64,000 nucleotides of DNA from Sinosporangium siamense (lineage in GTDB: Bacteria > Actinomycetota > Actinomycetes > Streptosporangiales > Streptosporangiaceae): NCBI RefSeq assembly GCF_016863435.1, contig NZ_BOOW01000043.1, positions 62,001 through 126,000 on the forward strand, read 5' to 3'. The position numbers were made by a program, and so were the translations under genes. Of the stretch, positions 3,543-50,201 are shown piece by piece. A model generated the notes under the pieces. It saw only the letters and a program-made list of their open reading frames with translations. It ran no database searches and was not told where the DNA came from. Every line of letters starts with the position of its first letter. The stretch's first letter is position 1.

Positions 3543-3558
3543 ATCGCCATTGTAGATT

Positions 3559-3591: not shown

Positions 3592-3609
3592 ATTCGAGGA
3601 GGCGATCTC

Positions 3610-21280: not shown

Positions 21281-21283
21281 CCT
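21228..21283 (+). repeat. attL (56-bp direct repeat, part of tRNA-Lys)
   Basis: Identical over 56 bases to 46993-47048. It starts in the anticodon stem (GCTGTGGACTTTTAATCC) and runs through the T arm, the CCA end and three more bases. This is the left attachment site and keeps tRNA-Lys functional. Confidence 0.95.
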
Positions 21284-23684: not shown

Positions 23685-23960
23685 TCACCTCTCCTGGTCG
23701 TCGCGATGTTCGTCATCGCGGTGTCCCAGCAGCACCTGCAGCCCGCGCACCGGCACCTGGTAGCGGCTCCCGATCCGGATCACCTTGCAGGGGAACAGTC
23801 CGGCCTTGGCCAGCTGGTAGGCCTTGGTACGACCCATGCCCAGCAGCCGCCCGGCGGTGACCACATCGATCACGGCGGGCCCGGCCTCCGTCAGCGCCAC
23901 CGCAGTCTTCACCTTTCCGGAGACCCGACGTTCCTGGAATCGCTGAGCTTCGTTGGTCAT
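23685..23960 (-). CDS. xis: Excisionase-type helix-turn-helix protein
   Basis: A protein of 91 residues with an excisionase/HTH_17 domain (about residues 30-75: VIDVVTAGRLLGMGRTKAYQLAKAGLFPCKVIRIGSRYQVP). Such proteins bind the attachment arm and direct the integrase toward excision. It lies immediately upstream of int in the same transcript, the standard arrangement for actinomycete integrative elements. About 220 bases without a gene separate it from the next gene. Confidence 0.92.
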   Translation of the reverse strand: MTNEAQRFQERRVSGKVKTAVALTEAGPAVIDVVTAGRLLGMGRTKAYQLAKAGLFPCKVIRIGSRYQVPVRGLQVLLGHRDDEHRDDQER

Positions 23961-24182: not shown

Positions 24183-25136
24183 TCAAGCGCGAATCCGTTT
24201 GTCATCCGCCGTCCCCGACGACGTCACACGCGGGGTAGCGCCTTCGACGAGAGGGCCGTCCGCCGGCTTGCGGAAGATCAGCAGATCCTCGTGCGCGATC
24301 GCGTGAATCGGCAGCCCTCGCGCCCAGCCCCTGCGCGCCTCGTGCAGCTGGAAGAACGACGACCGGTTCAACAACCGCCGCTCGCCCACCCCGCACAACA
24401 GGCAGGCGATCCGATCGGCGAACTCCAACCCGCTCGCCTGCCCGACTTCCAGAACGCAGCCCGGCAGATCCACGAGCTCACCGTGCAGTCGGTAGGGCCG
24501 CACCGTGACCGCCACGGCCCCACCCGGCCGCAGCAACTCACCGCACCCCTCCAGGATCCGTCCGAACCCCTCCAGCAGATCCGGCAGGCTCCGATGAGCG
24601 AGATTCGCCCGATCGCGGGAGTAGCGGTGGTTCCACTTGCGTATCCCCGCCTTCCCGCTGTCCCTGGTGGAGCGAACGTGACCATGAGTCATCGCCCCAT
24701 ACGGCGGCGAGGTCAATACCAGCGCCACCCGCCTTGCCAGTTCCGCAAGCAATCGGCCGATTGCCCGCGCGTCCCCCGAGATCACCCTTCCGGGACCCGT
24801 CGCGCCCTGCCGTTCGGCAAGGGCGAGCCCGGCCACGGCGACCTTGGCCCACCGCTCTTCGAACTCCACCCCCACCGCACGACGGCCGAGGTGAACGGCC
24901 TCGACCAACGTGGTGCCGATCCCGCACATGGGATCGACCACCAGCTCCCCTGGCCGGGAGTAGGTGCCGATGACCATGGCCGCGATGGCCGGGAGCATCT
25001 TGGCCGGATGCCTCATCGCCTCAGGAACGTATCGGCCGTTCCGCTGAGCCCGGGACTGCTTCTGCCCCGTCGCCCACACAGACGTGATCTCATGCGTCGA
25101 CTTCAGCCCCTCCCATTCCCAAGGACTCGGATTCAC
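24183..25136 (-). CDS. DNA methyltransferase, TRM11/N4-N6 type
   Basis: A probable orphan DNA methyltransferase of about 317 residues. The AdoMet loop is VVDPMCGIGTTLVEAVHLGR, an RNA/DNA methylase type motif I shared with TRM11-like enzymes, and the catalytic motif is LTSPPYGAMTHGH (S/T-PPY, typical of N4-cytosine or N6-adenine methylases). I chose GTG at 25136 (VNPSPWEWEG); the open frame extends into the upstream methylase-like gene, which overlaps it by 47 bases. No restriction partner is adjacent, so the pair may modify element DNA to evade host restriction. The target base is uncertain. Confidence 0.8.
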   Translation of the reverse strand: MNPSPWEWEGLKSTHEITSVWATGQKQSRAQRNGRYVPEAMRHPAKMLPAIAAMVIGTYSRPGELVVDPMCGIGTTLVEAVHLGRRAVGVEFEERWAKVAVAGLALAERQGATGPGRVISGDARAIGRLLAELARRVALVLTSPPYGAMTHGHVRSTRDSGKAGIRKWNHRYSRDRANLAHRSLPDLLEGFGRILEGCGELLRPGGAVAVTVRPYRLHGELVDLPGCVLEVGQASGLEFADRIACLLCGVGERRLLNRSSFFQLHEARRGWARGLPIHAIAHEDLLIFRKPADGPLVEGATPRVTSSGTADDKRIRA

Positions 25137-25981
25137 CCTTCGCAGTCGCTGAGCCACCTTCGCCGGCGACAGGCCCTCCGGTACCGTGCGCAGGCGCGGA
25201 TGAGGCGACCGGCTTGGTGAAGAGCAGCACGTCGAAGTGGACACGCAGGCTCACTGGAAGCTGCGCGCACTCTGGCAAGGAGTCCGACGAGCCGGGAGCG
25301 AACGTCACCTCCGTGTGCTCCCCGAGAGCCGGTAGCCGCACGGCGATGATGTGCTGCAGATAGACCAGGCCCGCCCGGCGCGCACGAGCGATGACGCCCG
25401 GCGCGGGGGTCGACCATTTGTGCCCCTGCCCGATGAAGCCCGGTGACGACCGCCAGATGCCCTCCCGGCTTCAGCAACTCCGCCGCCCGCTCCACATCAA
25501 CAGTGATCGGAGCACGCTCAGAAGGACTGCTGTGGCCGTGGGTACAGGCCTGACGGGTCACCACCAGGGCGGCCGAACCGGCGAGAGCGGACAACGCCAG
25601 ATGCATCCCCTCCGGACGAGCACACCGCAATTCAGCGACGTTCAGGTCGTGAGCCGGATGCACCATGTTCAACCTGTCGTACGCGGCCAAGAGCAGGTTC
25701 GCGTCCACGAAGACCGCATATGCCCGGCACCCCATCGACAGCGCGCTGGAGACCACCGCGGGCCCGGAAGCATTGATATCGACCACCAGGTCCCCGAGCC
25801 GAGTACAGGCAACCACGATGTGCCGAGCCAGCGCCTCGTTCACCGAGACACAGCAGCCGTCCCGGCAGTCGGTAGATGGCTCGCCCCCGGGAGTGAGCCA
25901 GACGCTCAACGGCAGATGCCCAGCCGCCTCCGCCCCAGGACGATTGGATGATGAGGTACTACCGGTAGAAGGTGATGTCAC
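25090..25981 (-). pseudogene. Second methyltransferase-like gene, frameshifted
   Basis: A paralogue-like gene in front of the previous one. Its first half (LARHIVVACTRLGDLVVDINASG...MGCRAYAVFVDANLLLAAYDRL, SALAGSAALVVTRQA, AELLKPGGHLAVVTG) follows the methyltransferase fold, but motif I is degenerate and there is no PPY. After VVTG, near 25430, the frame changes: the original frame becomes Arg/Ala-rich, while the next frame reads FIGQGHKWSTPAPGVIARAR and continues sensibly to a stop at 25090. One extra G in GGGCTTC would explain it. It may be a pseudogene or a sequencing error. Without motif residues it could be a specificity or regulatory partner of the intact methylase. Confidence 0.65.
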
Positions 25982-34608: not shown

Positions 34609-36234
34609 TCACTCGAGGAAGAGCTGTCCTCCTTGGACAGATCTCAGTCGCTCAATCTGTTTGTCGAGATTCCGTATCTGGGTCGAGCTCGCGCCGTACG
34701 CCTCCACCAGAAGTGGGCGGACGGATTCGAACTCCACCAGCGCCTCGTCTGGATACCCGGACGCTGCAAGCATCTGCGCGATGACGAAGCGTGTTTCTCG
34801 GATCCGCTCTGCGGTGTCGTCGTCGCTCACAGAGGCGGCACTGCCAGCGTTGCCGACGTAGAAGCGCAGGTGCGGGAGAGCCTTGTCCGGCTTGCCTACC
34901 TCGGCATAGGCGTGACCCGCGTGATAGGAGCAGTCGAGGACGTAGAAGTCGTTCTGGGAAAGCCGTTTGCGGTAGTCGCGTCCTACGACGTCGAACAGCG
35001 ACGCTGCCCGGGTGTACTCCCCAGCATAGAAATGAGCGGCGGCTAGGAAGTGCCGCAGCCGCAATTCCAGGAACGAGTTCTCGGCGCGGGCAACGCCGTC
35101 TTCCAGGAGACGGATTGCCTCGGACGGATGGTCGTTCTCCAAGAGGACCTGGACGTTGGCTCGCAACTTCTCGAATTCGTCTTCGGTGAGCTTGTCCCGC
35201 GCAGCGCCCTGCTCCTGGCGCTTGACGGGGGCCAGGAGTGGCCGCCGGAATGGGCGGGTCGGGTCGCGGTTCTCATCAAGGTTGCCTGCTCTATCGGTCG
35301 ATCCACCCGGATCTGTGGCGAACGGGAGGAGTTCCTCGTACACCGCCTCCGCTGTGGGCCGAGCCGCTGGCTGCTTCGCCATCATCGACGACAGCAGAGC
35401 ATCAAGCTCCGCTGGGACGTCCGGGCGGCGCGCCCGCACCGACGGTGCCGACGTCCGAAGGTGGTGGAAGCGCATGGGCCTATCAGTGGTCCCGTGGAAC
35501 GGCACATCACCGGTGAACAACTCGAACAGCAGGCAGCCGAGCGAGTAGACGTCGGAAGCGGAGGCGACCGCCTGGCCGATGCACTGCTCTGGCGACATGT
35601 ACGGCGGGGTGCCGACGGTCCGGTCGACCTGGGTGAGCCTCGGCAGCGCCCCCGCCCCGCGCAGGATCGCGATGCCGAAGTCCAGTACCTTCACCAGGCC
35701 GCCGTCTACCAGCATCACGTTGGCGGGCTTAATGTCCCGGTGGACGATGTCGACCCGGTGCACGTCTACCAGGACCGCCGCGATCTGCGCTGCGATCGAC
35801 GCCGCCCAAGACACGCTCGGTGGCGCATTGACGTAGTCCGCTCTGTCCAGCAGCGACTCCAGAGTCGAACCACGCAGCAGCTGCATGACAAGCCATAGCT
35901 GAGTGCTGCCGGCAGGGCTCGTCCCGACGCCCGTGTCGTAGACCGCCGGAATACCGGGGTGCTCCAGCTGGGCAGTGGTGCGGATCTCCCGTAAGAACCT
36001 CCTACGGTCTCGATCCAAGGCGTCGAGAATCTCCGCCGCCTCAGGACTGTCTGGCCCAGCTGGGTTTTCTCCCAACGACGAGGTCCGGAGCATCTTGATC
36101 GCGACCCGCCGGTCCAGCCGCTCGTCGTAGCCGTGGAAGACCTCGCTCATGCCGCCTTTGCCGAGCGACCCGTCTACGCGGTAGCGACCCGCCAGCAGCC
36201 GTCTCTCGACCGGTTGTCCGGCCCCGTCCTCCAC
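34609..36234 (-). CDS. Serine/threonine protein kinase with C-terminal TPR-like region
   Basis: A Hanks-type kinase of 541 residues. The kinase domain (about 15-280) has the glycine loop LGKGGMSEVF, the ATP-binding Lys in VAIKML, the catalytic loop IVHRDIKPANVML, DFG in VLDFGIA, and the activation segment end GTPPYMSPEQ. The region after about 310 has no membrane helix and is made of helical TPR-like repeats (ENDHPSEAIRLLEDGVARA, HFYAGEYTRAASLFDV, HAYAEVGKPDKALPHL), so the protein is cytosolic. It lies 32 bases downstream of hsdR on the same strand and is probably the last gene of that operon. A phosphorylation step linked to restriction-modification is suggested, but unproven. All catalytic residues are present. 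Confidence 0.88.
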   Translation of the reverse strand: MEDGAGQPVERRLLAGRYRVDGSLGKGGMSEVFHGYDERLDRRVAIKMLRTSSLGENPAGPDSPEAAEILDALDRDRRRFLREIRTTAQLEHPGIPAVYDTGVGTSPAGSTQLWLVMQLLRGSTLESLLDRADYVNAPPSVSWAASIAAQIAAVLVDVHRVDIVHRDIKPANVMLVDGGLVKVLDFGIAILRGAGALPRLTQVDRTVGTPPYMSPEQCIGQAVASASDVYSLGCLLFELFTGDVPFHGTTDRPMRFHHLRTSAPSVRARRPDVPAELDALLSSMMAKQPAARPTAEAVYEELLPFATDPGGSTDRAGNLDENRDPTRPFRRPLLAPVKRQEQGAARDKLTEDEFEKLRANVQVLLENDHPSEAIRLLEDGVARAENSFLELRLRHFLAAAHFYAGEYTRAASLFDVVGRDYRKRLSQNDFYVLDCSYHAGHAYAEVGKPDKALPHLRFYVGNAGSAASVSDDDTAERIRETRFVIAQMLAASGYPDEALVEFESVRPLLVEAYGASSTQIRNLDKQIERLRSVQGGQLFLE

Positions 36235-36266
36235 GTCCCATCACCCCTATCTCGAGATCTGAACTC

Positions 36267-39200
36267 CTACCCGGCCAGGCCGCCAGTTTCCCGTTGCATT
36301 TCTGCGCGGAGCTTGGCCAGCGCCTCATCCCGTGCGGGTTCGGTAATGATCCGGTAAGCGCGCTTGCGGGCTGCCTCTTTTATCGCCTTCTGGAACTCGT
36401 TGTTATCGAAATACAGCTTCATGAAGGCGGTGTTACGTTCGGCGTTCTCCGCGACGATGTCGTCAAGCCGGTCATCGGCAACCTGTCCAAACCGGGCTTC
36501 GTCGTTCATCAGCGCGATCTGCTGCATCCCGGTGTCCTCGACCAGTCCGACGACCTGCTGGTAGATCAGGACCTGGTCGGCGGTGCCCAGGCCAAGGCCG
36601 AACCGGTCGTTCAGCTCCTCGATCACCTCCGACAGCGGCTTGACTTCCGGCTCTCGGTAGCCGCCGCCGTCAGCGGCGTGGCCACGAACGGCCCGGTCTC
36701 CGACCGCTGAAAGCGACACGTTGTGCCGCCCGGTGTGCTCCAGCCGGAAATGACTCAGGTCCGCATCCCCGATGTCGATGGAGGTCGAGGGCCGTCCGGG
36801 CAGCCGGATCAGCAGGATCCGGCCGTACTGGTAGAGGCGTTCGAGGTCCCGGTCGCCCCAGTCGACGATCTGCGCGATGAGGCTGTAGGCGCGCACGTAG
36901 TCCTGCAGCGCGACCCGGAAACCTTCCCGCTCGTCGTCGGTGTCCAGCGCGACGAAGCGATCCAATGCGGGCTTGAGGTATTCGTGCAGCTCGGCGTGAA
37001 GCTTCCGCTCGGCCGCCTCGGGCAACCGGCCCGGTCCGGCCGCCGCTAGGACTCGGATGAACGCCTCCATTTCCGAGGCGACCAGCAGTTCGTACTCCAT
37101 CACCTCGCGCTGCTTGGTATAGAGCAGGTTCGGATCGCTGGGCTCGGTGATCGTCGTCTCGAACCAGTCCCAGAACGCTGCCTGGATGTCGGCGGCCTGG
37201 TTGACGAAGTCCAGGATGTGCACGTCGTCCTGCGACTTCAGCGGGTGGATCCGGTTCAGCCGGGAGAGCGTCTGCACCGCGGTGACCCCGGTCAGCGGCT
37301 TGTCGACATACATCCCGCACAGCAGCGGCTGATCGAACCCGGTCTGGTACTTGTCCGCGACGACCAGAAGGCGGTATTCATCCTGGTTACGCGCGGCGGC
37401 CTGCGGATCATCGGCCTTGGTGTAGGCGAACCGGTCCGGCAGCTGCCCCTCGGGGAATCCGTTGAGCTGTGACTCGGTGAATTCCAGGCCGGCGTCGTCT
37501 TTCAGCTGTCCGGAGAACGCGACAAGGGTGCCGCAGTCGGTGTATCCGCGCAGGGAGACGTAGTTACGGATCGCCTGGTACAGATCGAGCGCGTGCTGCC
37601 GCCCGCTGGTGACCACCATGGCCCTGGCTCGCCCGCCGAGGCGCCCGGCGAGGTTTTCTCGGAAGTCGTCGACGATCAGCCGGGCCTTCTGCTCCAGCGA
37701 CTTGGGGTGCAGTTCCGCGAGACGGACCAGCTGCGCCTTCGCCTTGCCGGCGTCGACCTCCGGGTTGGCGATCTGGGACTCGTTTTGGTCGACGGCCGCG
37801 TTCCGCAGTCGCCACTTCGTGTCGTAGGTGATGTAGTTGGCTAGCACATCCAGGATGTACCCCTCGTCGATGGCCTGCCGCATCGAGTAGATGTGGAAGG
37901 GGACGTACATCCCGACTTCGCCGGTGCGAGGGTTCGCCCGCTCGGGGTCGAAGGTTCCGAACAGCTTTAGCGTCGGCGACTTCGGCGTGGCAGTGAACGC
38001 GAAGTACGACAAATTCGGCTGCCTGCCGCGCACCCGCGTCATGTACGTCGCGTCGTCCTCGTCCTCCTCCCGCGGCGTCGCGTTCACCCCGAGCGCCTGC
38101 TTGAGCTGGATCGCTGACTCCCCACCCTGCGAGGAGTGCGCCTCGTCGATGATGACGGCGTACCGCTTGCCCGCCAGCCCCATATCGACGATCTTCTTCA
38201 GCAGGAAGGGATACATCTGCAGGGTACTGATGACGATCTTGGAGGTGGCGTCGCCGAGAGCGGTCGCGAGCTGCGTCGAGTCCACGTCGATCTTCTTGAC
38301 GACGCCGGGCGTGTGGTCGAACTGGAAGATGGTCTTCTGCAACTGGCGGTCGAGCACGACCCGGTCGGTGATCACAATGATCTTGTCGAATACGAGCTGG
38401 TTGCTCGCGTCGAAGAGATTCGAGAGCCGGTGTGACAGCCAAGCGATCGTGTTCGACTTCCCAGAGCCCGCCGAATGTTGGATCAGGTAATGATGCCCGG
38501 CCCCGTGCTCCCGCGCGTGGTCGACCATCTTCTGCACAGCGTGCCACTGGTGGTAGCGCGGGAACACCTTTGGCAAGGTGTGCGGGTTCTCCTTCACGCC
38601 CCTACGGTCGGGCACCTGGATATGCACGAACCTGTGCAGGATCTCCAGCCAGTTGTCGCGCTGCCAGATCTCCCCCCACAGGTAGTCCACGCTGTATGAC
38701 CCCGGCTTGGCCACCGGGTTCCCCGCCCCGCCGGACACGCCGGGGCCGTTGGATCCGATGTTGAATGGCAGGAACTGCGTGTCGGCCCCGCGCAGCCGCG
38801 TGGTGATGAAGGCCCGATCTGGATCTACCGCAAAGTGGACTAGTGCCCGCTTGGAGAGGAACACGTCGTTCGGGTCCCGGTCCCGCCGGTACTGCGCGAT
38901 GGCGTGGTCGGCGTTCTGCATTGTGTTCGGGTTCTTTAGCTCGACTGTTGCCGTCGGGAGCCCATTGACGAAAAGCGCCATATCAATCGAGCGCTTCGGG
39001 TGCCGCACGCTGTAATGCAGCTGCCTGGCAACAGTCAGCACATTCGCGTCGTACTCCGCGAGGGCGTCGGCGGCAAGGGTGTGACCGGGCCGGAAGTACG
39101 CCAGGTCGATCTGCACTCCTCGGTCCCGCACCCCTTGCCGCAGCACGTCCAACACGCCGCGCGCGTCGACTTCTGCAGCCACCCGCTGCGCGAACTGTCG

Positions 39201-39407
39201 CTGCGCCGCGGTCTGGTCACCCCCGTAGAACCCAACAAGGCGATCCCACTTCTTCGTCTGCGTCGCTCCGATGAAGCGGAACATCTCCCCGGTGTCGAGC
39301 CCCAAATCTACGTTGAACGTTCCCTGCGCCCGCGACCAGCCACGGTCGAGCAGTTCCTGCTCGACCCGATCCTCAAACATCCGCTCGCCATACGCTCCAG
39401 CCATCAT
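36267..39407 (-). CDS. hsdR: Type I restriction endonuclease subunit R
   Basis: The translocase/nuclease subunit of a type I restriction system, 1046 residues, close to the usual size. The N-terminal nuclease domain has the PD-(D/E)xK pattern in RSIDMALFVNGLPTATVELKNP (Asp, then Glu-x-Lys). The helicase motor has Walker A IQHSAGSGKSNTI, motif Ia-like DRVVLDRQL, the DEAH box VIIDEAHSSQGG, SAT-like FAFTATPKSPT and the second RecA domain with GFDQPLL and QTLSRLNRIHP. It translocates and cuts unmethylated DNA in complex with HsdM and HsdS. ATG at 39407 overlaps the stop of hsdS (ATGATG). The gene is intact. Confidence 0.96.
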   Translation of the reverse strand: MMAGAYGERMFEDRVEQELLDRGWSRAQGTFNVDLGLDTGEMFRFIGATQTKKWDRLVGFYGGDQTAAQRQFAQRVAAEVDARGVLDVLRQGVRDRGVQIDLAYFRPGHTLAADALAEYDANVLTVARQLHYSVRHPKRSIDMALFVNGLPTATVELKNPNTMQNADHAIAQYRRDRDPNDVFLSKRALVHFAVDPDRAFITTRLRGADTQFLPFNIGSNGPGVSGGAGNPVAKPGSYSVDYLWGEIWQRDNWLEILHRFVHIQVPDRRGVKENPHTLPKVFPRYHQWHAVQKMVDHAREHGAGHHYLIQHSAGSGKSNTIAWLSHRLSNLFDASNQLVFDKIIVITDRVVLDRQLQKTIFQFDHTPGVVKKIDVDSTQLATALGDATSKIVISTLQMYPFLLKKIVDMGLAGKRYAVIIDEAHSSQGGESAIQLKQALGVNATPREEDEDDATYMTRVRGRQPNLSYFAFTATPKSPTLKLFGTFDPERANPRTGEVGMYVPFHIYSMRQAIDEGYILDVLANYITYDTKWRLRNAAVDQNESQIANPEVDAGKAKAQLVRLAELHPKSLEQKARLIVDDFRENLAGRLGGRARAMVVTSGRQHALDLYQAIRNYVSLRGYTDCGTLVAFSGQLKDDAGLEFTESQLNGFPEGQLPDRFAYTKADDPQAAARNQDEYRLLVVADKYQTGFDQPLLCGMYVDKPLTGVTAVQTLSRLNRIHPLKSQDDVHILDFVNQAADIQAAFWDWFETTITEPSDPNLLYTKQREVMEYELLVASEMEAFIRVLAAAGPGRLPEAAERKLHAELHEYLKPALDRFVALDTDDEREGFRVALQDYVRAYSLIAQIVDWGDRDLERLYQYGRILLIRLPGRPSTSIDIGDADLSHFRLEHTGRHNVSLSAVGDRAVRGHAADGGGYREPEVKPLSEVIEELNDRFGLGLGTADQVLIYQQVVGLVEDTGMQQIALMNDEARFGQVADDRLDDIVAENAERNTAFMKLYFDNNEFQKAIKEAARKRAYRIITEPARDEALAKLRAEMQRETGGLAG

Positions 39408-40738
39408 GCCGAGACAATCGGGGAGAGACCGGATGTGTCGACTCCGCGCACGGTCGTGACATCAATCTGTCCGGTGACGGCAGCGGTGATGAAGGCCTCA
39501 CGGCGCTCGGAGAGGAGGGCGAGCTGCCGGGCAAGTGCATCGGAGGCGCCACTCGTGGAGCGCCGCGCTTGCTGACAACGCCTTACAGCTGAGTGCTGCT
39601 CCTCAAGCGACATTATCGGAACGGGAAAATCCAGCACTTTGGAACTACTGGTCGTAGCGATGCCGACCTGCGTCGAGGTGAGCCGGAAATATCCCCGACC
39701 GTGGGCTGATGCCAGTAGCGCCGATATGTACTCGGGAACAACTTTATTCCTATCTGCCCGAATGGCGAATATATGGTTCTGGTGTACCATTTCTGGGATC
39801 TCACCACTCCATACGGCTCCGCGTCCCAGATTGTCTGGGTTTCCGTTCGCCTCGGTCATGACTACGTCGCCGGGACGGAGCATCGACTTCAGGGCCATGG
39901 AAGCAGGAATTGTTATTTTCTTGACCTCTGACAGATCAACCCTTTCCCCTTGAACGTTCGCTACGCGAAGGTAAGGATACTCCGCGTCTTCCGAAGTCCT
40001 CTCTCTTGCGCTATGCACGGTTACGCCTGACCGAACTCGGGCTATATAGCCAAGCCTGACCGTGCGAATCGATATGGGCAGCCACGGCCACAAAGGATTC
40101 GGATTATTGGAAGCCCCTCCAGGGACGAGAATTTCCGAGATGGCTGCGGCGTACTTCTCTTCAAGAAGGAGCAGTTGTTGGTGACGCTGCCGCATCAGCT
40201 GATCGATTCGGGCTGTCTCGGCGTCGAGGAGGTTGGCAATACGCCTCTGCTCATCGAAGGGAGGAACCAGAATCGGCATCGCATGGAAGTCAATCTTCGA
40301 AACGCGTCGATCGAAAGTTGTGTCTGCTCGCGTGTAGAGCTTGTATTGGTCTCGATAAGGCTGACTCCGCAGCAGGTGATGAATATATCTGGGATAGAGA
40401 TCCGGCCCAAGAGAATAGACCCGATAGTCAGGACTTACTGCGCCTGCCGTCTCCGAGACCCCGATTCCACCGCCTACGAGCCACATAGGATTAACGACCA
40501 GGTCGCCCGGCTCGACCAACCAGTAGCGTTCGACTGTGTCATTAGATGGAGCCTGACGTCCAAGCCCGTCGAACTCTTCGCGCGGAGCAAGAACACCCTT
40601 CGATGACAGCGAAAGAAGGGTTGCATTTCCCCCTTTATTTGCCGAATCGACTAGTATGGCCAGACGCCTGAACGGCAGTGCCCCCCAGCTCGGGGGAGTC
40701 CGGTTAACAAGGGCCTCGATCGCGATATCGTCGCTCAT
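39404..40738 (-). CDS. hsdS: Type I restriction specificity subunit S
   Basis: A DNA specificity subunit of 444 residues. Two target recognition domains (about 10-200 and 225-420) are each followed by a conserved helix: PFDEQRRIANLLDAETARIDQLMRQRHQQLLLLEEK and MSLEEQHSAVRRCQQARR...LARQLALLSERREAFI. These are the spacer helices that bind HsdM. The target sequence cannot be read from the protein but should be bipartite. Codon use is more A/T-rich in the two recognition domains than in hsdM and hsdR, as is common for swapped specificity domains. It overlaps both neighbours by 4 bases. Confidence 0.94.
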   Translation of the reverse strand: MSDDIAIEALVNRTPPSWGALPFRRLAILVDSANKGGNATLLSLSSKGVLAPREEFDGLGRQAPSNDTVERYWLVEPGDLVVNPMWLVGGGIGVSETAGAVSPDYRVYSLGPDLYPRYIHHLLRSQPYRDQYKLYTRADTTFDRRVSKIDFHAMPILVPPFDEQRRIANLLDAETARIDQLMRQRHQQLLLLEEKYAAAISEILVPGGASNNPNPLWPWLPISIRTVRLGYIARVRSGVTVHSARERTSEDAEYPYLRVANVQGERVDLSEVKKITIPASMALKSMLRPGDVVMTEANGNPDNLGRGAVWSGEIPEMVHQNHIFAIRADRNKVVPEYISALLASAHGRGYFRLTSTQVGIATTSSSKVLDFPVPIMSLEEQHSAVRRCQQARRSTSGASDALARQLALLSERREAFITAAVTGQIDVTTVRGVDTSGLSPIVSA

Positions 40739-42708
40739 CCCGTCACCTCCCCCAGCAGCTTCTGGATCTGCATCTCGAGTTCGCGCAGCTCAGCGTCGAT
40801 CTCGTCCAGCGGCCGGGGCGGGATGTAGACGTAGAAGTGCCGGGTGAAGGGGATCTCGTAGCCGACCTTCGTCTTCTCATGGTCGATCCAGGCGTCGGGG
40901 ACATGCGGAATGACCTCGCGGGCGAAGTATTCCTCGATGTCTTCGTCGAGCGGGATGTTCTCGTAGTCGCGCAGGTCCGGGTCGGGCAGGACGGTGCCGT
41001 CCTTGTCCATCTGAACCTCGCCTTCGGGGTCGGAGACCGCGACGGCCCCCCAGACCGCCTTCAAAAGAGTGGTGGTGCTGGGCCACCGGGCTCCGAGGTC
41101 GACGGCGGCCTGGTGCAGGGCGTTCGTCGCTTCCTTCTTCGTCCACCAGATCGAGCCGATCACGCCGCGCAGTGCCTCGACCAGCGCGTCGCGCCCGTCC
41201 CACTTAGCCAGGGCTTTCGCGCTGCCGAGCGCGGTCAGGGTGTCCTCGGTGATCTCGAAGCGAAGTTTGAGTGGACGCTCCACGGTGATGCGGTGGTACC
41301 CGAAGTCACGGGTGCCGAAGACCTTCACCTTGGCGTGGCCCGGATGGCCGGCGTCCGCCGCGACCTTCACCGCATCAACGTACAGCTCGGTGATGTGTTT
41401 GATCTGCATATCGGTGATCTGCTTGCGCTTGTCCCCGAGGGACTTGCGCATCTTCTCCCACTGGTCGCGGGCGTCGAGCAGGATAACCTTGCCGCGCAGT
41501 TCGTCGGGCTTCCGGTTGGAAAGGATCCAGAAGTAGGTGGAAATGCCAGTGTTGTAGAAGAGCTGGTCCGGCAGGGCGACGATGCCCTCCAACCAGTCGT
41601 TCTCCAAGATCCACTGACGAATCTTCGACTCGCCGGACTCGGCGGCACCGGTGAAGAGCGGGGAGCCATTGAAGACGATCGCCAGGCGCGAGCCCTTGCC
41701 TTCGACCGGGTCCATCTTGTCGAGCATGTGCTGCAGGAAGAGGAACGAGCCGTCGTTGATGCGCGGCAGCCCGGCGCCGAAGCGGCCAGCGTGACCAAGC
41801 TCAGCCTCAGCCTCGACCGCAGCCTTGACCTTCTTCCATTCCACGCCGAAGGGCGGGTTGGCCAGCATGTAGTCGAACGCCCGGCCCCGGTGACCGTCGT
41901 CGCTGAAGGAGTTGCCGAAATGGATGGTGCCGCGTTGCTCGCGCATGAGCATGTCCGCCTGGCAGATCGCCCACGACTCCGCGTTGAGTTCCTGACCGAA
42001 GAGGTAGACCGTTGCGTTCGGATTGAGCGACTTGATGTGCTCCTCGGCAGCGGTCAGCATTCCGCCGGTGCCGCAGGCCGGGTCAAGGACGTTGATGACC
42101 TGGCCGTCCGCAGCGAGAGCGTCCTTGTCCGGGGCGATCAGCAAGTTGACCATCAACTTGATGACCTCGCGCGGAGTGAAGTGCTCACCGGCGGTTTCGT
42201 TGGAGTCTTCGGCGAACTTCCGGATCAGGTGCTCGAAGACGTAGCCCATGTCGTGGTTGCTGAGCCGGTCAAGGTCGCGCATTGTGGCGAACTCCCCGAC
42301 TACCGCGTAGAGGATCTTCGCGCCCGCCAGGCGGGTGATCTCGTTGTCCAGGTCGAACCGGCTCAGGATCGTCCGGACGTTCGGGGAGAATCCGTTGATG
42401 TAGTCTCGCAGGTTCTTCGCGACGTTCTGCGGGTCGCTCGCGATGGTCGAGAAGTCCTGTAGGGAGGTGTTGTAGAACGGCAGCTTCGCCGCAAGCTCCA
42501 GCACCTTCTGCTTGTTCTGAACGGTGAGCGCAGCGTCGCGGTCGCGTACGGCTTGCCGAGTCGGGGCCATCACCGCGTCGAGGCGGCGCAGCAGAGTGAA
42601 CGGCAGAATTACCCCGCCGTACTCGTGGCGCTTGTAGTCGCCGCGCAGTAGATCGGCTACCGACCAGATGTCGGCCGCCATCTTGGTATGACTGGGTCCC
42701 GAGGTCAC
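40735..42708 (-). CDS. hsdM: Type I modification methylase subunit M
   Basis: An N6-adenine DNA methyltransferase of 657 residues. It has the HsdM N-terminal helical domain (WSVADLLRGDYKRHEYGGVILPFTLLRRLD), motif I VLDPACGTGGMLTAA and motif IV MLANPPFGVEWKK, followed by GSFLFLQHML and ALPDQLFYNTGISTYFWIL. It is longer than classical HsdM (about 520) by a C-terminal extension (residues 470-657) ending DAELRELEMQIQKLLGEV, a coiled segment. It methylates the target chosen by HsdS. The start overlaps the preceding methylase-like gene by 4 bases and its stop overlaps hsdS. Confidence 0.95.
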   Translation of the reverse strand: MTSGPSHTKMAADIWSVADLLRGDYKRHEYGGVILPFTLLRRLDAVMAPTRQAVRDRDAALTVQNKQKVLELAAKLPFYNTSLQDFSTIASDPQNVAKNLRDYINGFSPNVRTILSRFDLDNEITRLAGAKILYAVVGEFATMRDLDRLSNHDMGYVFEHLIRKFAEDSNETAGEHFTPREVIKLMVNLLIAPDKDALAADGQVINVLDPACGTGGMLTAAEEHIKSLNPNATVYLFGQELNAESWAICQADMLMREQRGTIHFGNSFSDDGHRGRAFDYMLANPPFGVEWKKVKAAVEAEAELGHAGRFGAGLPRINDGSFLFLQHMLDKMDPVEGKGSRLAIVFNGSPLFTGAAESGESKIRQWILENDWLEGIVALPDQLFYNTGISTYFWILSNRKPDELRGKVILLDARDQWEKMRKSLGDKRKQITDMQIKHITELYVDAVKVAADAGHPGHAKVKVFGTRDFGYHRITVERPLKLRFEITEDTLTALGSAKALAKWDGRDALVEALRGVIGSIWWTKKEATNALHQAAVDLGARWPSTTTLLKAVWGAVAVSDPEGEVQMDKDGTVLPDPDLRDYENIPLDEDIEEYFAREVIPHVPDAWIDHEKTKVGYEIPFTRHFYVYIPPRPLDEIDAELRELEMQIQKLLGEVTG

Positions 42709-44483
42709 AGTTTTCTCTTCTCCTCGTCAGCGGCAGGCGTGTCATCAGTGTTCTTCATCAGTGTGTACTCGGGTGCCAGAACGCCGGCGATCAGTCCGTA
42801 CACGGTTTGTTCAATCACATGTGTGCTCACTCTCTCCAGGGCCGCGAGCACCTCCTGGAGCTCCTGCAGGTGGCGGAACGCGTAGCCGTACCGTTGCTGC
42901 TCGGCAAGCGGTAGCCGTGGGACGCGGCAACGACGCAGGTCATCGCGGTTAAGCGCGCCGAGGGTGTTGGCCGCGGGGAGTGCTCCTGCGTCGGCCCGTA
43001 GGAAGCTCGCCAGGAAGTATGCGTCCAGGCGGGCGGGGTCTATCTCGACGATCTGTGCGATACCAGTGTCGTCCGCGGCCGTGCCGGTCGCGACGATCGG
43101 CGGGCGGCCGAGAGTCCGCAGCAATACGTCCCCGGCACGCGGGGTGTCGTCACGGGCTCTGACGGTCAGCACCCCGGCGCGTTCCAGCTCGCCGAGGGTG
43201 ACGTGCGAGTGATGGGTCGGCGCGGTCGGCGCGGCGAAGCGCGGCAAACCTTGGACCGCCTGTAGGTAGAGGGTGTGCAGCCGATCGGTGACGTGGGCGA
43301 AGTCGTCGGTACTTGCCTCGGCCCATGGAGTGACATAGCGGGACGGCAGCAGGTTCGTCTCGCCGTCGAGGAGCTCCAGGCGCGGGACTGCGCGCGAGAC
43401 CGTCGGGTCGGCCTCGCCGAACAGTCGCTCCCAGGCGGCGAACTCGTACGGGACATCGGCGGCGTCGCCCAACCTCGACAGGTCGACCATCCGAACTTCT
43501 CGATGGTCAGGAGGCCCGTATGGCCGCTGCAGGACCCAGAGGTAGACGTCGGTATCGGGGGCGGAGCCCATCCCCTTCGGCAGCGCGATCACGTCACGCA
43601 ACACGCCGGAGCGCACCAGCGCCGCACGGATCTGCTGCCCTGACGGTTGCAGGCAGGTGCGCGGCGTCACCGCGACGACGGCCACCCCGCGGGGGCGCAG
43701 GTGCGCGTAACAGTGCTGGACCCAGGCCAGTTCCCCATCTCGGGGGGCCGGGGTGCCGAAATCCCAGCGCGGGTCGGTCGCCAGCTCGGCCGAGGGCCAC
43801 TGTGGTTGGTCGAAGGGTGGCTCGCAGACGACGGCCGCTACCGCCCCCAGATACCCGGAAAACTGGTTTTCCAGCAGGGAGTCGCCCGTGTGGATTTCGT
43901 ACAACGTGCCGAGAGGGTTTTCGCTCAGCCTCTGCACGGCCGTCTCGGTAGCAGTCAACTGAATCTCCTGCCCGGCCAGCCGGACCTCGGTGCCGAAGCG
44001 GTCGGCGACGGCCAGCAGCAGAGTCGCCTCCGAGCAAGCCGGATCCAGCACGACGGGAACATCCGCTTCCCAGCCGCTGGACGGCCCGGCCGAAGCCGTC
44101 GAATGCGGCAGCAGTGACGCCATGACCCTGGCTAGCAACTCACCCGAGGTCAAGTCAGCAACGCCCCGTTCGGGCTCCTGCAGGCGATCGAGGCTGCATC
44201 TCTCCCAGGCGTAGGGCAAATCGCTCGGGAACTGGTCAGGGTTGTCGACGCGTTGCGTCCCGGTCTCGGTCTGCCCAGCCGTCGCCAGCTGATCACCCTT
44301 GCCTGTCGCCTTCAGCCACTCCTCGACCTCTGCCAGAGAAAACGTGGGGCTGTGCCCACTACCGCCGACCGGTTTAGGGAACTCCGGGTAGCGCTTGCGC
44401 CAGTTCGCCACGGCGGCACGGCTAACGCCGGCCAGCCGCGCGATCGCCGCCGCCGTCACCTCATCGTGCTCGCCAAGGCCCAT
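42705..44483 (-). CDS. HTH plus degenerate N6 DNA methylase, first gene of the RM operon
   Basis: A protein of 592 residues with three parts. Residues about 8-60 are a DNA-binding helix-turn-helix (AAAIARLAGVSRAAVANWRKRY...FSLAEVEEWLKATGKG). Residues 100-380 follow the N6 methylase fold, but with altered motifs: VLDPACSEATLLLAV where DPACGTGxxL is expected, and VVCEPPFDQPQW where NPPF/Y is expected, so Asn is replaced by Glu. Residues 400-590 resemble a specificity-like half domain (LTVRARDDTPRAGDVLLRT, PLAEQQRYGYAFRHLQELQEVL). ATG at 44483. Four-base overlap with hsdM. Catalysis is doubtful; a regulatory or target-sensing role in the complex is more likely. Confidence 0.78.
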   Translation of the reverse strand: MGLGEHDEVTAAAIARLAGVSRAAVANWRKRYPEFPKPVGGSGHSPTFSLAEVEEWLKATGKGDQLATAGQTETGTQRVDNPDQFPSDLPYAWERCSLDRLQEPERGVADLTSGELLARVMASLLPHSTASAGPSSGWEADVPVVLDPACSEATLLLAVADRFGTEVRLAGQEIQLTATETAVQRLSENPLGTLYEIHTGDSLLENQFSGYLGAVAAVVCEPPFDQPQWPSAELATDPRWDFGTPAPRDGELAWVQHCYAHLRPRGVAVVAVTPRTCLQPSGQQIRAALVRSGVLRDVIALPKGMGSAPDTDVYLWVLQRPYGPPDHREVRMVDLSRLGDAADVPYEFAAWERLFGEADPTVSRAVPRLELLDGETNLLPSRYVTPWAEASTDDFAHVTDRLHTLYLQAVQGLPRFAAPTAPTHHSHVTLGELERAGVLTVRARDDTPRAGDVLLRTLGRPPIVATGTAADDTGIAQIVEIDPARLDAYFLASFLRADAGALPAANTLGALNRDDLRRCRVPRLPLAEQQRYGYAFRHLQELQEVLAALERVSTHVIEQTVYGLIAGVLAPEYTLMKNTDDTPAADEEKRKL

Positions 44484-44918
44484 GCGGCAACCATACAGGG
44501 CAACACTGGCCGAAACAATGAGACTGTGAGCACTCGTGAGCATTTGCATCGATGCTCACAAGATGTGCTAGGTTGCTACCTGCAAGAGTGATGATCGTCA
44601 TGTCAATCGCCGCGAGCCACGGATGATGAGCGCGATGCTGTCCGCCCTGTCCGGCCGCCAGAGTCGTCCTCAGCCAGCCGATCCGTGACTGTGAAACGTG
44701 TGTCCCCCCTCGCGGGGGACCATCTGCTAGAAGCGCCGAATCGTATCGAGAGGACATGGCCCTGACTGGGGCCCAGTCCGTCCGTGCAGGGGCCTTGGCC
44801 GCACCGACAACGCACCCAAGAACCGGTGCACGTGTCACATCGTGCCCACGCCGCCAGGCGCCCCCTGCTCCCCATCTGTCCGGACCTTCAGGTCCCTGCA
44901 CCTCACACGAGGACTGGC
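44484..44918. other. Divergent promoter region of the RM operon and DUF6119 gene
   Basis: 435 bases between two divergent starts. The part next to the methylase-like gene holds a palindrome (listed separately) and A/T-richer sequence suited to promoters. From 44600 to 44900 no coding signal is supported, although the plus-strand frame of the DUF6119 gene stays open back to 44784. Confidence 0.55.
44536..44559. promoter_or_regulatory. Palindromic operator candidate at the RM operon promoter
   Basis: GTGAGCAT (44536-44543) and ATGCTCAC (44552-44559) form a perfect 8-bp inverted repeat with an 8-base spacer, and the inner GCATCGATGC (44546-44555) is itself palindromic. A further half site GTGAGCA is at 44526. 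It sits 53-76 bases upstream of the helix-turn-helix methylase gene, whose N-terminus could bind it for autoregulation. Confidence 0.55.
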
Positions 44919-46655
44919 ATGAGCGCTGAGAACCACAACACCCCGGCCGCCGCCGCGAAGGCCGCAGCCCCGCCAACCACCCGCAAGACCTCCCTCTACC
45001 GCCTGCGTAGTGCGGACCCGAGCACACACACGAACCTCCGCACGTTCGTTCTCTCCCGCTACCTGGACCGCGAAGGCTTCCAGGCCTGCGAGGTCGATCA
45101 CGAGAGCATCTCCGGCCTCCTCATCACCGGCACGATCGCCCCCGGTCCCGCCGATTGGTGCGACCCGCTCAGCGCCTTGAGCGGGCACCCCATCGCCGAG
45201 GAGAACCAGACGACCCTCGCCCTCCTCCTGGTCCGCACCGAGCAGGCGATCTACGGTCTCACCTACGGCATGGGCCACCTGATGATCGACCCGGCCTGGA
45301 TCGACCCGGGTTTCGGGATCGAGCTCGCCATCCGCTGCCTGGACGCCGACCGCATCACCAAGGTCCGGCGTCAGGTCATGGACGCGCGCGGCCGAACCGA
45401 CGAGAACTCCGCCACCGGCGGGGAACACATCCGGGGCTTCGGCATCGAGCAGTTCGGAGAGATCGTCAGCCAGATCTCTGGCCAGATCGTCAACGTTCCG
45501 CTCACCTTCACCAAGGACCGCACCCGGCCTGCGCACATCACGGGCAACGACCGTTCGGTGAAACTGCCGCTTGGCAGCACCCCTGCCTCTCTGCTGCACG
45601 ACCTCCAGCGGATCGAGGAGGTCTGCGCCCAGCCCAGCCCACTGCCGGAGTTCGAGTTCATCGCCCAGGTCCGGCCGCTTCCCCCGAAGTCCGAGCAGGC
45701 TCAGCGCCTCGACGAGCGCCTCGACGCCATGCTCGGCGGAGACGAGCACGCACTCCTCGCACTCGCCGTGCCCAGCCTCTGCCGGGACCGCTACGACTTC
45801 GCAGAGTCCTTCAAGGTGACCCTCAGGGGCCGCTCCCAGTTCCACACCGAGCTCGAGGTCCGCCAGTTCATCGAAGCTGTCCGGCCCTGTGAGTCGGGTA
45901 GCCGCCTGCGGGTCCTGCGCGAGGGACGCATCCAGATGTTCGCCGACACCGAGGGCCACGAGCTGATCAGCAGCAAGGTTCCCGCCGACCACTGGCTCAC
46001 CGCCGAAGTGTCGGAGGGAAGTTGCCACTACTTCTACTGGCAGCGGCGGTGGTATGAGATCGGCGCGGAGTACCTCGCGGTCATCGAGCAGCGAATCACC
46101 GAACTCCTCGCCCACTCCACCAAGGTCACGATGCCGCCCTGGATCAAGGGCAAGAACGAAGACTGGTACAACAAGCAGGTCGCCACCCAGGCTGGGTACG
46201 TCCTGCTCGACAAGAACACTGTGCGTACGGCACGCCTGCGCGGCGGCGGGCTCGAGATCTGCGACACCCTCGGGCCCGACGGTCAGTTCATCTGCGTGAA
46301 GAAGGCCAAAGCGACCGCCGAACTGAACCACCTCTTCGCGCAGGGCCGGGTCGCCATGGAAACCCTGCGTTTCGACACCGATGCCCAGGGGAAGTTCCTG
46401 GCCAAGGTCGACGAGCTCGCCCCAGGCCACCCCCTGGACAGGACCTTCAGGTCACTGACCCTGGTCTACGGCATCCTCCTCAAGGGCGGGGTACCGCTGA
46501 CCCCGAACTCCCTGTTCGCCTTCGCGAAGGTCTCGCTGCTGCACACGGTGACCGCCCTGGAGGGGATGGGCGTGCGCGTGGAGATCGTCTCCATCTCCCG
46601 AACCTCGACCACCGGAACGGTCACGCCGGGGGGAGAAGCCGACTCGTCTTCCTGA
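44919..46655 (+). CDS. DUF6119 / TIGR04141-like sporadically distributed protein
   Basis: A protein of 578 residues that fits the DUF6119 (TIGR04141, 'sporadically distributed') family: it opens with KTSLYRLRSADPSTHTNLRT, has the middle phrase ALLLVRTEQAIYGLTYGMGHLMIDP, and later contains WYEIGAEYLAVIEQRI and EDWYNKQVATQAGYVLLDK, followed by LEICDTLGPDGQFICVKKAK. Members are scattered on mobile elements and next to restriction systems; no biochemical function is established to my knowledge. The LLDKNTV...ICDTL region has a nuclease-like look (Asp, Glu, Lys spacing), but this is only a guess. ATG at 44919 follows CGAGGA. It is divergent from the restriction operon and shares its promoter region. 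Confidence 0.65.
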   Translation: MSAENHNTPAAAAKAAAPPTTRKTSLYRLRSADPSTHTNLRTFVLSRYLDREGFQACEVDHESISGLLITGTIAPGPADWCDPLSALSGHPIAEENQTTLALLLVRTEQAIYGLTYGMGHLMIDPAWIDPGFGIELAIRCLDADRITKVRRQVMDARGRTDENSATGGEHIRGFGIEQFGEIVSQISGQIVNVPLTFTKDRTRPAHITGNDRSVKLPLGSTPASLLHDLQRIEEVCAQPSPLPEFEFIAQVRPLPPKSEQAQRLDERLDAMLGGDEHALLALAVPSLCRDRYDFAESFKVTLRGRSQFHTELEVRQFIEAVRPCESGSRLRVLREGRIQMFADTEGHELISSKVPADHWLTAEVSEGSCHYFYWQRRWYEIGAEYLAVIEQRITELLAHSTKVTMPPWIKGKNEDWYNKQVATQAGYVLLDKNTVRTARLRGGGLEICDTLGPDGQFICVKKAKATAELNHLFAQGRVAMETLRFDTDAQGKFLAKVDELAPGHPLDRTFRSLTLVYGILLKGGVPLTPNSLFAFAKVSLLHTVTALEGMGVRVEIVSISRTSTTGTVTPGGEADSSS

Positions 46656-46992
46656 CAGTCGCGGGCCTGTCACGCTGCCACCACGGCTTCAGAATCTATC
46701 GCGGTGCGGACCGAGGCGGCTTGACTCAGGGAAGACTCAATTCCAGGCATGGCCCATCACAAAATCCGCCGCCGAGATTCTTCTCCGAATAGGCGTCGGC
46801 TCCGCGAGCCGGCGCCTTAAACCGTCGAAACCGGATGGTCAATTTCGCGCAAGCGCCGTACGGTTGCTCGTTGGTTGCTCTTCGGCATCCGATACGGCAC
46901 GGCACCGGACGCCATTCTTAGACATTTCGATGGGCGCCATTCGCACTAAGGGCGGTATATTGACGTATAGATTGGCAAGATCCGGCATTAAT
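46656..46992. other. Right inner end of the element; hairpin and possible arm sites
   Basis: No gene is supported. It holds a terminator hairpin (46791-46817) for the DUF6119 gene and the sequence GGTTGCTCG-TT-GGTTGCTC (46862-46880), which resembles GGTTGCTCG near attL. The last 80 bases before attR are A/T-rich (GGCGGTATATTGACGTATAG), typical of attachment-site flanks. Confidence 0.5.
46791..46817 (+). terminator. Hairpin downstream of the DUF6119 gene
   Basis: AGGCGTCGGCTC (46791-46802) pairs with GAGCCGGCGCCT (46806-46817) with one mismatch and a 3-base loop; TTAAACC follows. It lies 135 bases after the stop codon, just inside attR. Confidence 0.6.
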
Positions 46993-47048
46993 GCTGTGGA
47001 CTTTTAATCCATAGGTTCCGGGTTCGAGTCCCGGGCGGCCTACCACCT
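46993..47048 (+). repeat. attR (56-bp copy of the tRNA-Lys 3' part)
   Basis: Exact copy of 21228-21283. Its upstream sequence (CCGGCATTAAT) differs from the tRNA 5' half, so this is not a second tRNA gene but the right attachment site of the element. Confidence 0.95.
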
Positions 47049-49011: not shown

Positions 49012-50201
49012 GTGCCGCGTCATGCAACGTTGGTCTTGTAACCGGTCCAGCTCCGAATGACCGACCCGGGGGCGAAGTCCCGCTTGGGTACGGCACGTGC
49101 GTTGCGCCGGCGGACATAGCCGGCTATCGCCTCACCCTGCTCGGTGTGACTGCGGTGGTCGGTCCCGTTGAGGGCGAAGTAGCGCAGCGCGGCGAACTCG
49201 GACTCTATCCAGTTCAACCAGGACGAGTACGTCGGGGTGAACACCAGTTCCACACCGCTGCCGGCCGCCCAGGACCGCACCTCGGCATGCCGATGGGGAG
49301 AGAAGTTGTCCATGATCAGGTACAGCCTCCCCGTCGGCCACCGGCTACGCAGCACCTTCAGGAAGGACAGGAACTCGCGCCACCGTTTGCGCGCGCGGAT
49401 GCGGTACACCAGCTTTCCGCTGCTCAGATCAAGTGCGGCGAGCATATGACGTACCCTCGCCGGGCGGTTGTACGTCGCGCGCAGCCGGATCGGGCGGCCG
49501 GTGGGCCGCCAGGTCCGTCCGGGCCGCGGCTGCAGGTTCAGCGGCCCGAACTCGTCCACGCACACCACCCGGCCGTCGGCCGGCGGGGTGTCGTACAGCT
49601 TCAGCACCCGGCGCATGCGCCCGATGAACTCCGGATCGGTGGACGCCTTCCAGGTCTTGGAGGCCTGCCGGGTGATGTGCGCCTCGCGCAGGACCCGGCG
49701 CACGCTCTCACGGCTGATCGAGGCCACCACGCCGGTGGCGGTCAGGTATTCGGCGAGCTTGGCCAGACTCCAGACCGAGAAGGGAAGGCCCAGGTCGCGG
49801 GGGTGGCACAGGGCGGTCAGTCGGATGTGGCGGCGGACCGCCTCACCGATCGTCCTGGGCCTGCCCCCGCTCCATTTTGGGTTGAGGGCCGCGAAACCCA
49901 GGTCGTTTAAGTCGTGGATCACCCCCCTTACGTATTCCTGTGAGCAGGCGAGCAGGTGGGCGATGTCGGGTGCGCCGCGGCCCTGGGCCGACATCAGCAC
50001 CACGATGGCCCGCCGCAGCTTGACGGGGTCCTTGGCGGTGCGGCCGATCTGCTGCAGCCGCCGTCCTTCGGCCATCGTGACCGGTCTGACGAATACTTCG
50101 GGTAATCGGCCCATCGCCACCTCCGAGACAGCACTCGAAAGAAACGTGGCTCGTATCCGGCTCAACATCAATTACACGAACAACGATCCTGGACGGGGCA
50201 C
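49012..50201 (-). mobile_element. IS630-type insertion sequence, complete
   Basis: A 1190-bp element flanked by a TA duplication (49010-49011 and 50202-50203). The terminal inverted repeats are imperfect over about 31 bases: both ends start GTGCC(G/C)CGTC and share CGTTG and TGTAA further in. One intact transposase gene fills it. The target was GCTAGC inside an ABC transporter ATPase gene. Confidence 0.85.
49020..50114 (-). CDS. IS630 family transposase
   Basis: An intact transposase of 364 residues. The N-terminal half has two helix-turn-helix segments (RRAIVVLMSAQGRGAPDIAHLLACSQEYVRGVIHDL and PFSVWSLAKLAEYLTATGVVASISRESVRRVLREA). The catalytic DDE domain has Asp in VVCVDEFGPL, Asp in YLIMDNFSPHRH and Glu in SSWLNWIESEFAALRYF, the IS630/Tc1-mariner pattern. 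The ATG at 50114 follows GGAGGTGG; the open frame reaches back into the terminal repeat. The stop codon lies within the left terminal repeat. Because gene and ends are intact, the element may still be mobile. Confidence 0.94.
   Translation of the reverse strand: MGRLPEVFVRPVTMAEGRRLQQIGRTAKDPVKLRRAIVVLMSAQGRGAPDIAHLLACSQEYVRGVIHDLNDLGFAALNPKWSGGRPRTIGEAVRRHIRLTALCHPRDLGLPFSVWSLAKLAEYLTATGVVASISRESVRRVLREAHITRQASKTWKASTDPEFIGRMRRVLKLYDTPPADGRVVCVDEFGPLNLQPRPGRTWRPTGRPIRLRATYNRPARVRHMLAALDLSSGKLVYRIRARKRWREFLSFLKVLRSRWPTGRLYLIMDNFSPHRHAEVRSWAAGSGVELVFTPTYSSWLNWIESEFAALRYFALNGTDHRSHTEQGEAIAGYVRRRNARAVPKRDFAPGSVIRSWTGYKTNVA

Follow-up and report, generated by a model that had tools for sequence, protein, structure and literature searches.

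A widespread, co-evolving actinobacterial operon predicted to combine type I restriction with a built-in Ser/Thr kinase and an often broken methylase

Introduction

Why should a type I restriction operon carry its own protein kinase, a second methylase-like protein and, on its divergent side, a DUF6119 gene? The question is raised by a locus of Sinosporangium siamense (NCBI RefSeq assembly GCF_016863435.1), which lies in a stretch of 64,000 nucleotides (contig NZ_BOOW01000043.1, positions 62,001 to 126,000 of the forward strand). This whole stretch is called the window in the following, and all positions refer to it. How type I enzymes tell an invader from newly acquired or unmodified DNA of their own cell is named as unresolved in a passage of a 2013 review (PMC3874165).

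Judging from its gene content, its recurrence and the joint divergence of its genes, the locus is a widespread, co-evolving operon of predicted defence function, in which type I restriction has a built-in kinase and an often broken methylase. The reading that we favour, and hold to be probable on balance, is a type I restriction system regulated by phosphorylation, which has a (pseudo)methylase as DNA sensor and resides in an integrative element.

Results and Discussion

Five genes stand in tight order on the minus strand, and the DUF6119 gene diverges from them on the plus strand. On recheck all six were found where a preliminary description of this DNA had placed them, and the three overlaps of 4 bases and the gap of 32 bases between hsdR and the kinase gene are exact. 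By their sequences, the products of hsdM, hsdS and hsdR make up a whole type I enzyme, and their motifs are intact. The modification subunit HsdM (40735-42708, minus strand) scores above the Pfam cut-offs for N6_Mtase (198.5 bits) and HsdM_N (74.1 bits), and its catalytic motifs (here DPACGTGGML and NPPF) are kept in all 29 loci compared. The same holds, in 29 of 29 loci, for the ELK nuclease motif, the Walker A motif and the DEAH box of the restriction and translocase subunit HsdR (36267-39407, minus strand). HsdR matches HSDR_N, SWI2_SNF2 and ResIII in Pfam, with HSDR_N, SWI2_SNF2 and a T1R_D3-like domain above the cut-off; against the NCBIfam model TIGR00348 it reaches 180.8 bits, below the cut-off of 284.55. 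The specificity subunit HsdS (39404-40738, minus strand) is recognised by the PADLOC specificity models (243.6 bits, Specificity_I, over residues 133-435; 207.6 bits over residues 11-429), its Pfam score of 20.2 bits being just short of the cut-off of 22.

The first gene of the operon, here called htM (42705-44549, minus strand), codes for an N-terminal helix-turn-helix (HTH) with excisionase and regulator matches in PHROGs, an N6-methyltransferase-like domain (Pfam N6_Mtase, E 2e-20) and a C-terminal half-HsdS that resembles a target recognition domain. The C-terminal third aligns with HsdS in a one-to-one comparison (hhalign probability 96.9, E 1.9e-10). Alignments of homologues place the likely start of htM at about 44483, inside the annotated open reading frame (ORF).

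The last gene (34609-36234, minus strand) encodes a Hanks Ser/Thr kinase (Pfam Pkinase, E 1e-40) in which the catalytic lysine, HRD and DFG are all present; across the loci compared, these elements (DFG as D[FY]G) are conserved in 29 of 29. It had been described as cytosolic with a TPR-like tail. No transmembrane stretch was found in it, the sole 19-residue window with a hydropathy of at least 1.6 lying in the kinase core, and this part of the description holds. The tail is conserved within the system, but its TPR matches stay below the Pfam cut-off.

The gene set was followed through a sample of 250 genomes of the same family with three anchors, htM, the kinase tail and HsdM, and with DUF6119 as a further anchor. 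The preliminary description had proposed co-occurrence in other genomes as a check, and htM, hsdM, hsdR and the kinase gene do recur in the same order in many genera, an order that is conserved across many genomes and goes beyond chance. Its inclusion of the DUF6119 gene in the set needs to be relaxed: this gene is often found with the operon but is optional, being absent from the examined stretch in 6 of 28 full operons. At an identity of at least 55%, htM occurs in 8 of the 250 genomes, and the order htM-hsdM-hsdS-hsdR-kinase is identical in all six htM-anchored loci that are uncut by contig ends.

The HsdM anchor does not require a kinase. The best 47 of 63 listed matches were taken (E 5e-220 or better, 56-100% identity) and 46 of the 47 places were examined, G232 being left out, which has no hsdM in its retrieved stretch. 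Among these 46 loci, htM was scored upstream in 41, and downstream hsdS was scored in 45, hsdR in 40 and a kinase in 36. Two of the five htM misses (L230, L244) do carry the gene and were overlooked by the distance rule; the stretch of L103 is too short, L248 is without htM within 4.7 kb, and L246 is a different kind of operon. Seven of the ten kinase misses (L039, L043, L136, L234, L235, L239, L241) reach the end of the contig or of the retrieved stretch, no hsdR was seen in L138 over 11.7 kb or in L242 over 13.1 kb, and L246 lacks both hsdR and kinase. Two of the 16 matches below the 47 were inspected: L134, a HsdM fragment with 61% identity, has the full gene set, and L247 (57% identity) has hsdS and hsdR, htM and kinase not being found there.

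Kinase-tail matches with E 1e-10 or better were found in 44 of the 250 genomes, and 39 loci out of 45 places were examined. In 24 of them hsdR lies upstream on the same strand, 19 times within 200 bases; four have htM without hsdR, ten have neither, and one is a fragment. A broader kinase-tail profile matched 16 of 396 genomes sampled across the phylum. Among the ten strongest of these matches, the own genome aside, three accompany a type I operon, with inserts among hsdM, hsdR and kinase, four are neighbours of htM without hsdMSR and three are kinases alone. The kinase subfamily therefore has other lives as well, ten loci within the family and three outside being without the partners of the system.

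A scan of named genomes with the DUF6119 alignment gave 14 loci, ten of which have the full six-gene set, the kinase being cut by the locus end. Their hosts are Sphaerisporangium TRM90804, Nonomuraea basaltis, N. cavernae, Acrocarpospora corrugata, Actinomadura KC216, A. syzygii, Streptomyces MnatMP-M17, Streptomyces SID486, Nocardia tenerifensis and Thermomonospora echinospora; four of the ten loci (L161, L163, L166, L169) come from genomes that are also in the family sample. A search of phage records gave four weak matches only.

In a number of relatives (L132, L133, L134, L136, L234, L238-L240, L244, L245), inserts of about 4-9 kb lie between hsdS and hsdR, with a GmrSD gene with RAMA in L132 (5776-8088) and an AIPR/AbiU-like gene in L136 (12137-14761). 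At this site the operon acts as a slot that other genes enter as cargo. Two further loci are rearranged or reduced. L094 (G004:C26), from the genus of the window, has a truncated kinase beside a DUF6119 fragment and resembles a decayed copy of the system. In the rearranged operon of L086, hsdR and htM flank a CBS-domain protein of the PADLOC candidate family PDC-S02 (2742-4445).

Pairwise protein distances were correlated over the 28 operons with all five genes, host phylogeny not being subtracted; L134, where htM is split into two ORFs, and L103, with no htM in its stretch, were left out of the correlations and of the tree described below. The genes htM, hsdM, hsdR and kinase behave as one unit (0.91-0.97), with 0.95 for htM and kinase, 0.97 for hsdR and kinase, 0.91 for hsdM and kinase and 0.95 for htM and hsdR, at a mean HsdR identity of 56%. 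Thus, the kinase and htM are parts of the machine. The correlation of hsdS with any other gene is 0.04-0.13, and the specificity subunit is therefore freely exchanged, as in ordinary type I systems. For DUF6119 the values against htM, hsdM, hsdR and kinase are 0.70-0.72 (22 loci), which makes it a looser partner.

Neighbouring htM and kinase genes without hsdMSR account for four of the 39 kinase loci in the family and four of the ten outside. Since this pair occurs without hsdMSR, htM, and not HsdR, may be the first point of action of the kinase. Loci of this kind are L089, L090, L091, L151, L193, L194, L195, L199 and L050, and motif IV of htM is intact in all five that were checked (L050, L089, L090, L091, L151). 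In L123 (G138) and L158 the DUF6119 gene diverges from htM, a kinase and genes for a DrmD-like helicase, an IIG/DrmMI-like methylase and a DruE-like protein, followed at the end by a UvrD/GajB-like protein and a second kinase; L172 has DUF6119, three small ORFs away, with htM, kinase and a DrmD-like helicase. These sets are Druantia/DISARM-like. It is conceivable, if rather doubtful, that the (pseudo)methylase with its HTH and recognition domain and the TPR-tailed kinase form a portable phospho-signalling module able to serve more than one restriction engine. Here it would be joined to type I HsdRMS and in other actinobacteria to a Druantia/DISARM-like set of helicase and methylase, and elsewhere it would stand alone. 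The pseudo-methylase would then read the state of the DNA, the kinase would license or trigger restriction, and DUF6119 would be a back-up effector with a nuclease fold.

A different role for the kinase, which we consider unlikely, follows the model of PrrC in EcoprrI. The kinase, and perhaps DUF6119, would be a latent toxin that the type I complex keeps in check; once restriction is blocked by a phage, the kinase would be freed, host proteins would be phosphorylated and the infection would be aborted. Passages on PrrC provide the precedent (PMC3874165, PMC12707154), the PADLOC models closest to the kinase domain are PD-T4-6 (268 bits) and mad6 (223 bits), and the operon inserts in relatives bear other defence genes. 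However, the kinase adjoins htM even where hsdMSR is missing, and its co-evolution is as tight with htM as with HsdR; both would be more natural for a partner in signalling than for a toxin.

The motifs of htM are broken in the window (motif I DPACSEATL, motif IV EPPF in the context CEPPF). All 9 rows of the window clade have a broken motif IV (EPPF or EPPW), and 8 of the 9 have lost the first glycine of motif I; judging from these motifs, the htM proteins of this clade should lack methylation activity. A second clade has DPP, EPP or NPP followed by T, S, L or V, and five rows from kinase-less operons have no recognisable motif. The pattern [ND]PP[FYW] is kept in 18 of 49 htM rows. Of the 28 full operons, 20 have a broken catalytic motif and eight an intact one; 'motif-defective', as the protein had been termed, therefore describes the clade but not the system. 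As a defining trait of the system the broken motif was rejected: on a tree of the 49 rows the label intact or broken needs five changes, four of which are forced by strongly supported branches. Repeated loss is the natural reading, the tree being blind to gain versus loss.

The kept motifs speak for htM as a true methylase, so that the system would have two modification activities with different targets, the kinase would control expression only and the broken motif of this clade would be decay. We regard this as improbable, since the gene was retained through four or more flips of the label and every row of the window clade is broken. Because it combines two DNA-reading domains with a methylase domain that was repeatedly broken yet kept, htM is best read as a sensor or regulator.

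A candidate operator for such a regulator is the palindrome CTCGTGAGCAT-N8-ATGCTCACAAG (44533-44562), which has one mismatch between its arms and lies 50 bp upstream of the likely htM start. Relative to TGTGAACAT-N8-ATGTTCACA, both arms of the window copy are changed in the same way. In 7 of 9 loci of the close clade, a palindrome that resembles TGTGAACAT-N8-ATGTTCACA ranks as the top site of its stretch. A top or tied site upstream of htM was found in 9 of 9; in L036 (top) and L162 (tied top) it lies in the same intergenic stretch, yet is not the N8 palindrome. Two loci without DUF6119 keep the palindrome, which therefore goes with htM. The exact pattern had no match when searched in the own genome, the local copy having a mismatch in one arm. 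In a consensus-free scan for inverted repeats upstream of htM, 0 of 40 shuffles were as good in L038 and L042. The window, L041 and L164 were each equalled by 2 of 40 shuffles, the palindrome of L164 being a different one. Outside the close clade the scan was mostly no better than shuffles; L167 was better, with a different palindrome at a like distance. Since one clade served both to derive the consensus and to count it, and the consensus-free scan is only partly significant, the palindrome is suggestive only, as the putative operator of htM.

The DUF6119 gene (44784-46655, plus strand; PF19614, E 1e-115) scores far above the cut-offs of its models (387.7 bits against 27 in Pfam; TIGR04141, 329.1 bits against 35 in NCBIfam). 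Its likely start is the ATG at 44919 behind a GAGGAC box that is kept in most of seven aligned relatives. The gene is present in 42 of the 250 family genomes, and 41 loci of 45 places were examined, three places being left out and two rows forming one split gene. The full htM..hsdR..kinase set is divergent from it in 16 loci, and htM and hsdR with no kinase scored in eight; one has htM and kinase without hsdR, four only htM in the stretch, three only a kinase-like gene, eight none, and one was not rescorable. A manual look showed that L133, among the eight loci with no kinase scored, has a kinase at its end, and that L120, among those scored none, has a same-strand type I operon alongside. The gene is also found beside kinase-less type I operons, beside Wadjet or without any system gene nearby, and it is an optional, separable accessory. 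In L170 (Actinomadura harenae) it diverges from Wadjet JetA/JetC-like genes. In the kinase-less relatives (L154 and L155, both Streptomyces plasmids, and L114, L116, L117, L126, L127, L129) it diverges from a degenerate htM-like protein of about 680-760 aa, which is followed by hsdM, hsdS and hsdR.

Seven residues of its C-terminal domain are invariant across 25 diverse members (E414, D431, E446, D449, K461, H471 and Q475, numbered from 44919). The AlphaFold2 model of this domain (pLDDT 79.9, pTM 0.76) has the order alpha-beta-beta-beta-alpha-beta, which would fit the core of the PD-(D/E)xK fold and makes a nuclease fold a candidate and a lead. Its Foldseek matches are weak and none reaches significance (E above 0.02); they include CdiA-CT (4g6u_A, probability 0.77, TM 0.38-0.40), the list also has SduA, SfsA and PfoI, and unrelated folds rank equally high. 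We take CdiA-CT, SduA, SfsA and PfoI to be nuclease-type folds. The whole protein gave no significant match in the PDB, and in the searched literature DUF6119/TIGR04141 turned up in a single paper, on wheat genes.

The operon and the DUF6119 gene sit inside a 25.8-kb integrative element at a tRNA-Lys gene (21228-47048). It is bounded by a 56-bp exact direct repeat, the left copy (21228-21283, plus strand) being the 3' part of the intact tRNA-Lys (21205-21280) and the right copy (46993-47048, plus strand) repeating the tRNA-Lys 3' end. ARAGORN also calls a tRNA-Lys at the right end (46969-47045), with a 5' part unlike the intact gene. Near the left end lie a tyrosine, phage-type integrase (22062-23678, minus strand; Phage_integrase, E 2e-19), and an excisionase/AlpA-like HTH gene (23685-23960, minus strand; HTH_17 with 21.6 bits, below the cut-off of 27). 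Between these two genes and the operon, genes for PrgI and a type IV secretion system pilin are above the cut-off, and TrbL- and TraC-like matches are weak and below it. The TraC-like gene is short (213 aa), and the conjugative transfer part of the element therefore looks decayed. The element also contains an N6_N4 DNA methylase-like gene (24183-25244, minus strand). Just beyond the right end lies a DDE_3 transposase (49020-50171, minus strand).

That kinase and DUF6119 are unrelated cargo riding with the type I system on this mobile element, as the element itself and the cargo entering between hsdS and hsdR in several relatives might suggest, is very improbable and for the kinase disfavoured by the order shared among many genera, its proximity to hsdR (within 200 bases in 19 of 39 kinase loci) and the distance correlation of 0.97 at only 56% mean HsdR identity; DUF6119 may be a passenger.

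How does the locus compare with known systems? It shares the complete hsdM, hsdS and hsdR with type I restriction-modification, but has in addition a recurrent HTH (pseudo)methylase as first gene, a TPR-tailed kinase as last and an optional divergent DUF6119. With BREX type 2/Pgl (PglW kinase, PglX methylase) it has in common a kinase and a DNA methylase in one actinobacterial defence operon, whereas the present locus has HsdR. The preliminary description was right in that the other Pgl/BREX genes are absent: the scanned genes gave no match to PglX, PglY or PglZ in NCBIfam, and with 35.2 bits for the PglW model against a cut-off of 990, membership of BREX type 2/Pgl was rejected. MADS (mad1-8) shows weak likeness in the mad6 kinase, the mad2 methylase, the mad5 S subunit and the small HTH protein mad1, and differs by the hsdR found here. 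MADS membership was likewise rejected (mad6 131.8, mad2 53.9 and mad5 25.5 bits against NCBIfam cut-offs of 460, 720 and 400); mad3, mad4, mad7 and mad8 had no NCBIfam match among the eight scanned genes. Still, the system seems to work along lines similar to Pgl/BREX and MADS, with methylation-based self-marking and a kinase.

EcoprrI with PrrC also embeds an accessory protein in a type I operon, but there it is an anticodon nuclease and here a kinase, joined by an extra methylase-like chain. PD-T4-6 is a stand-alone, single-gene phage-defence kinase; it shares the Hanks kinase domain, and differs from the present kinase with its TPR-like tail and recurrent partners. The set is not named in PADLOC or NCBIfam scans, and no named system with it was found in the titles and abstract openings of the searched literature, which covers few subscription journals; the earlier statement to this effect agrees with that. 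For a YprA-helicase preprint naming ARMADA (PMC12458937), the literature search counted no word beginning with 'kinase'.

Conclusions

Taken as phospho-regulated restriction, the system would work as follows. The htM protein would be a second M-S-like chain, with its HTH, methylase-like domain and half-HsdS, and would most likely serve as a DNA-binding sensor and regulator of the operon, binding the upstream palindrome as its operator. The kinase would take up a signal via its TPR-like tail and most likely phosphorylate htM and/or HsdR. In this way it would switch the system between full restriction during infection and a guarded state, which would apply while the locus establishes itself in a new host or when the host DNA shows unmodified sites. 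The divergent DUF6119 would be an optional addition, perhaps serving as a back-up effector with a nuclease fold. There is precedent for such phosphorylation: according to passages of the cited papers, HsdR of EcoKI is phosphorylated on threonine (PMC3874165), and the kinase activity of PglW is required for Pgl phage resistance (PMC4365076). On this reading, phosphorylation would gate restriction.

Several observations weigh against this reading. Representative R subunits of types IB and IC are not phosphorylated, according to the same review passage (PMC3874165). Ten of 39 kinase-tail loci, and a fragment besides, have neither hsdR nor htM upstream, and three of ten kinases outside the family stand alone. 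The htM motif is intact in 8 of 28 operons and 18 of 49 rows, and those proteins may methylate in their operons. The TGTGAACAT-N8-ATGTTCACA-like palindrome is the top site in 0 of 8 sister-clade loci, its consensus was derived from the clade in which it was counted, and 7-16 of 40 shuffles were as good in L036, L040, L162 and L165. Finally, the gene correlations may partly reflect host phylogeny.

Overall, the recurring gene set suggests that bacterial immunity of this kind is under phosphorylation control. A type I operon with its own kinase and a DNA-reading (pseudo)methylase makes such control of restriction directly testable. Moreover, the locus supplies a context for DUF6119, and it connects classical restriction with Pgl/BREX type 2 and MADS, systems that also contain a kinase.

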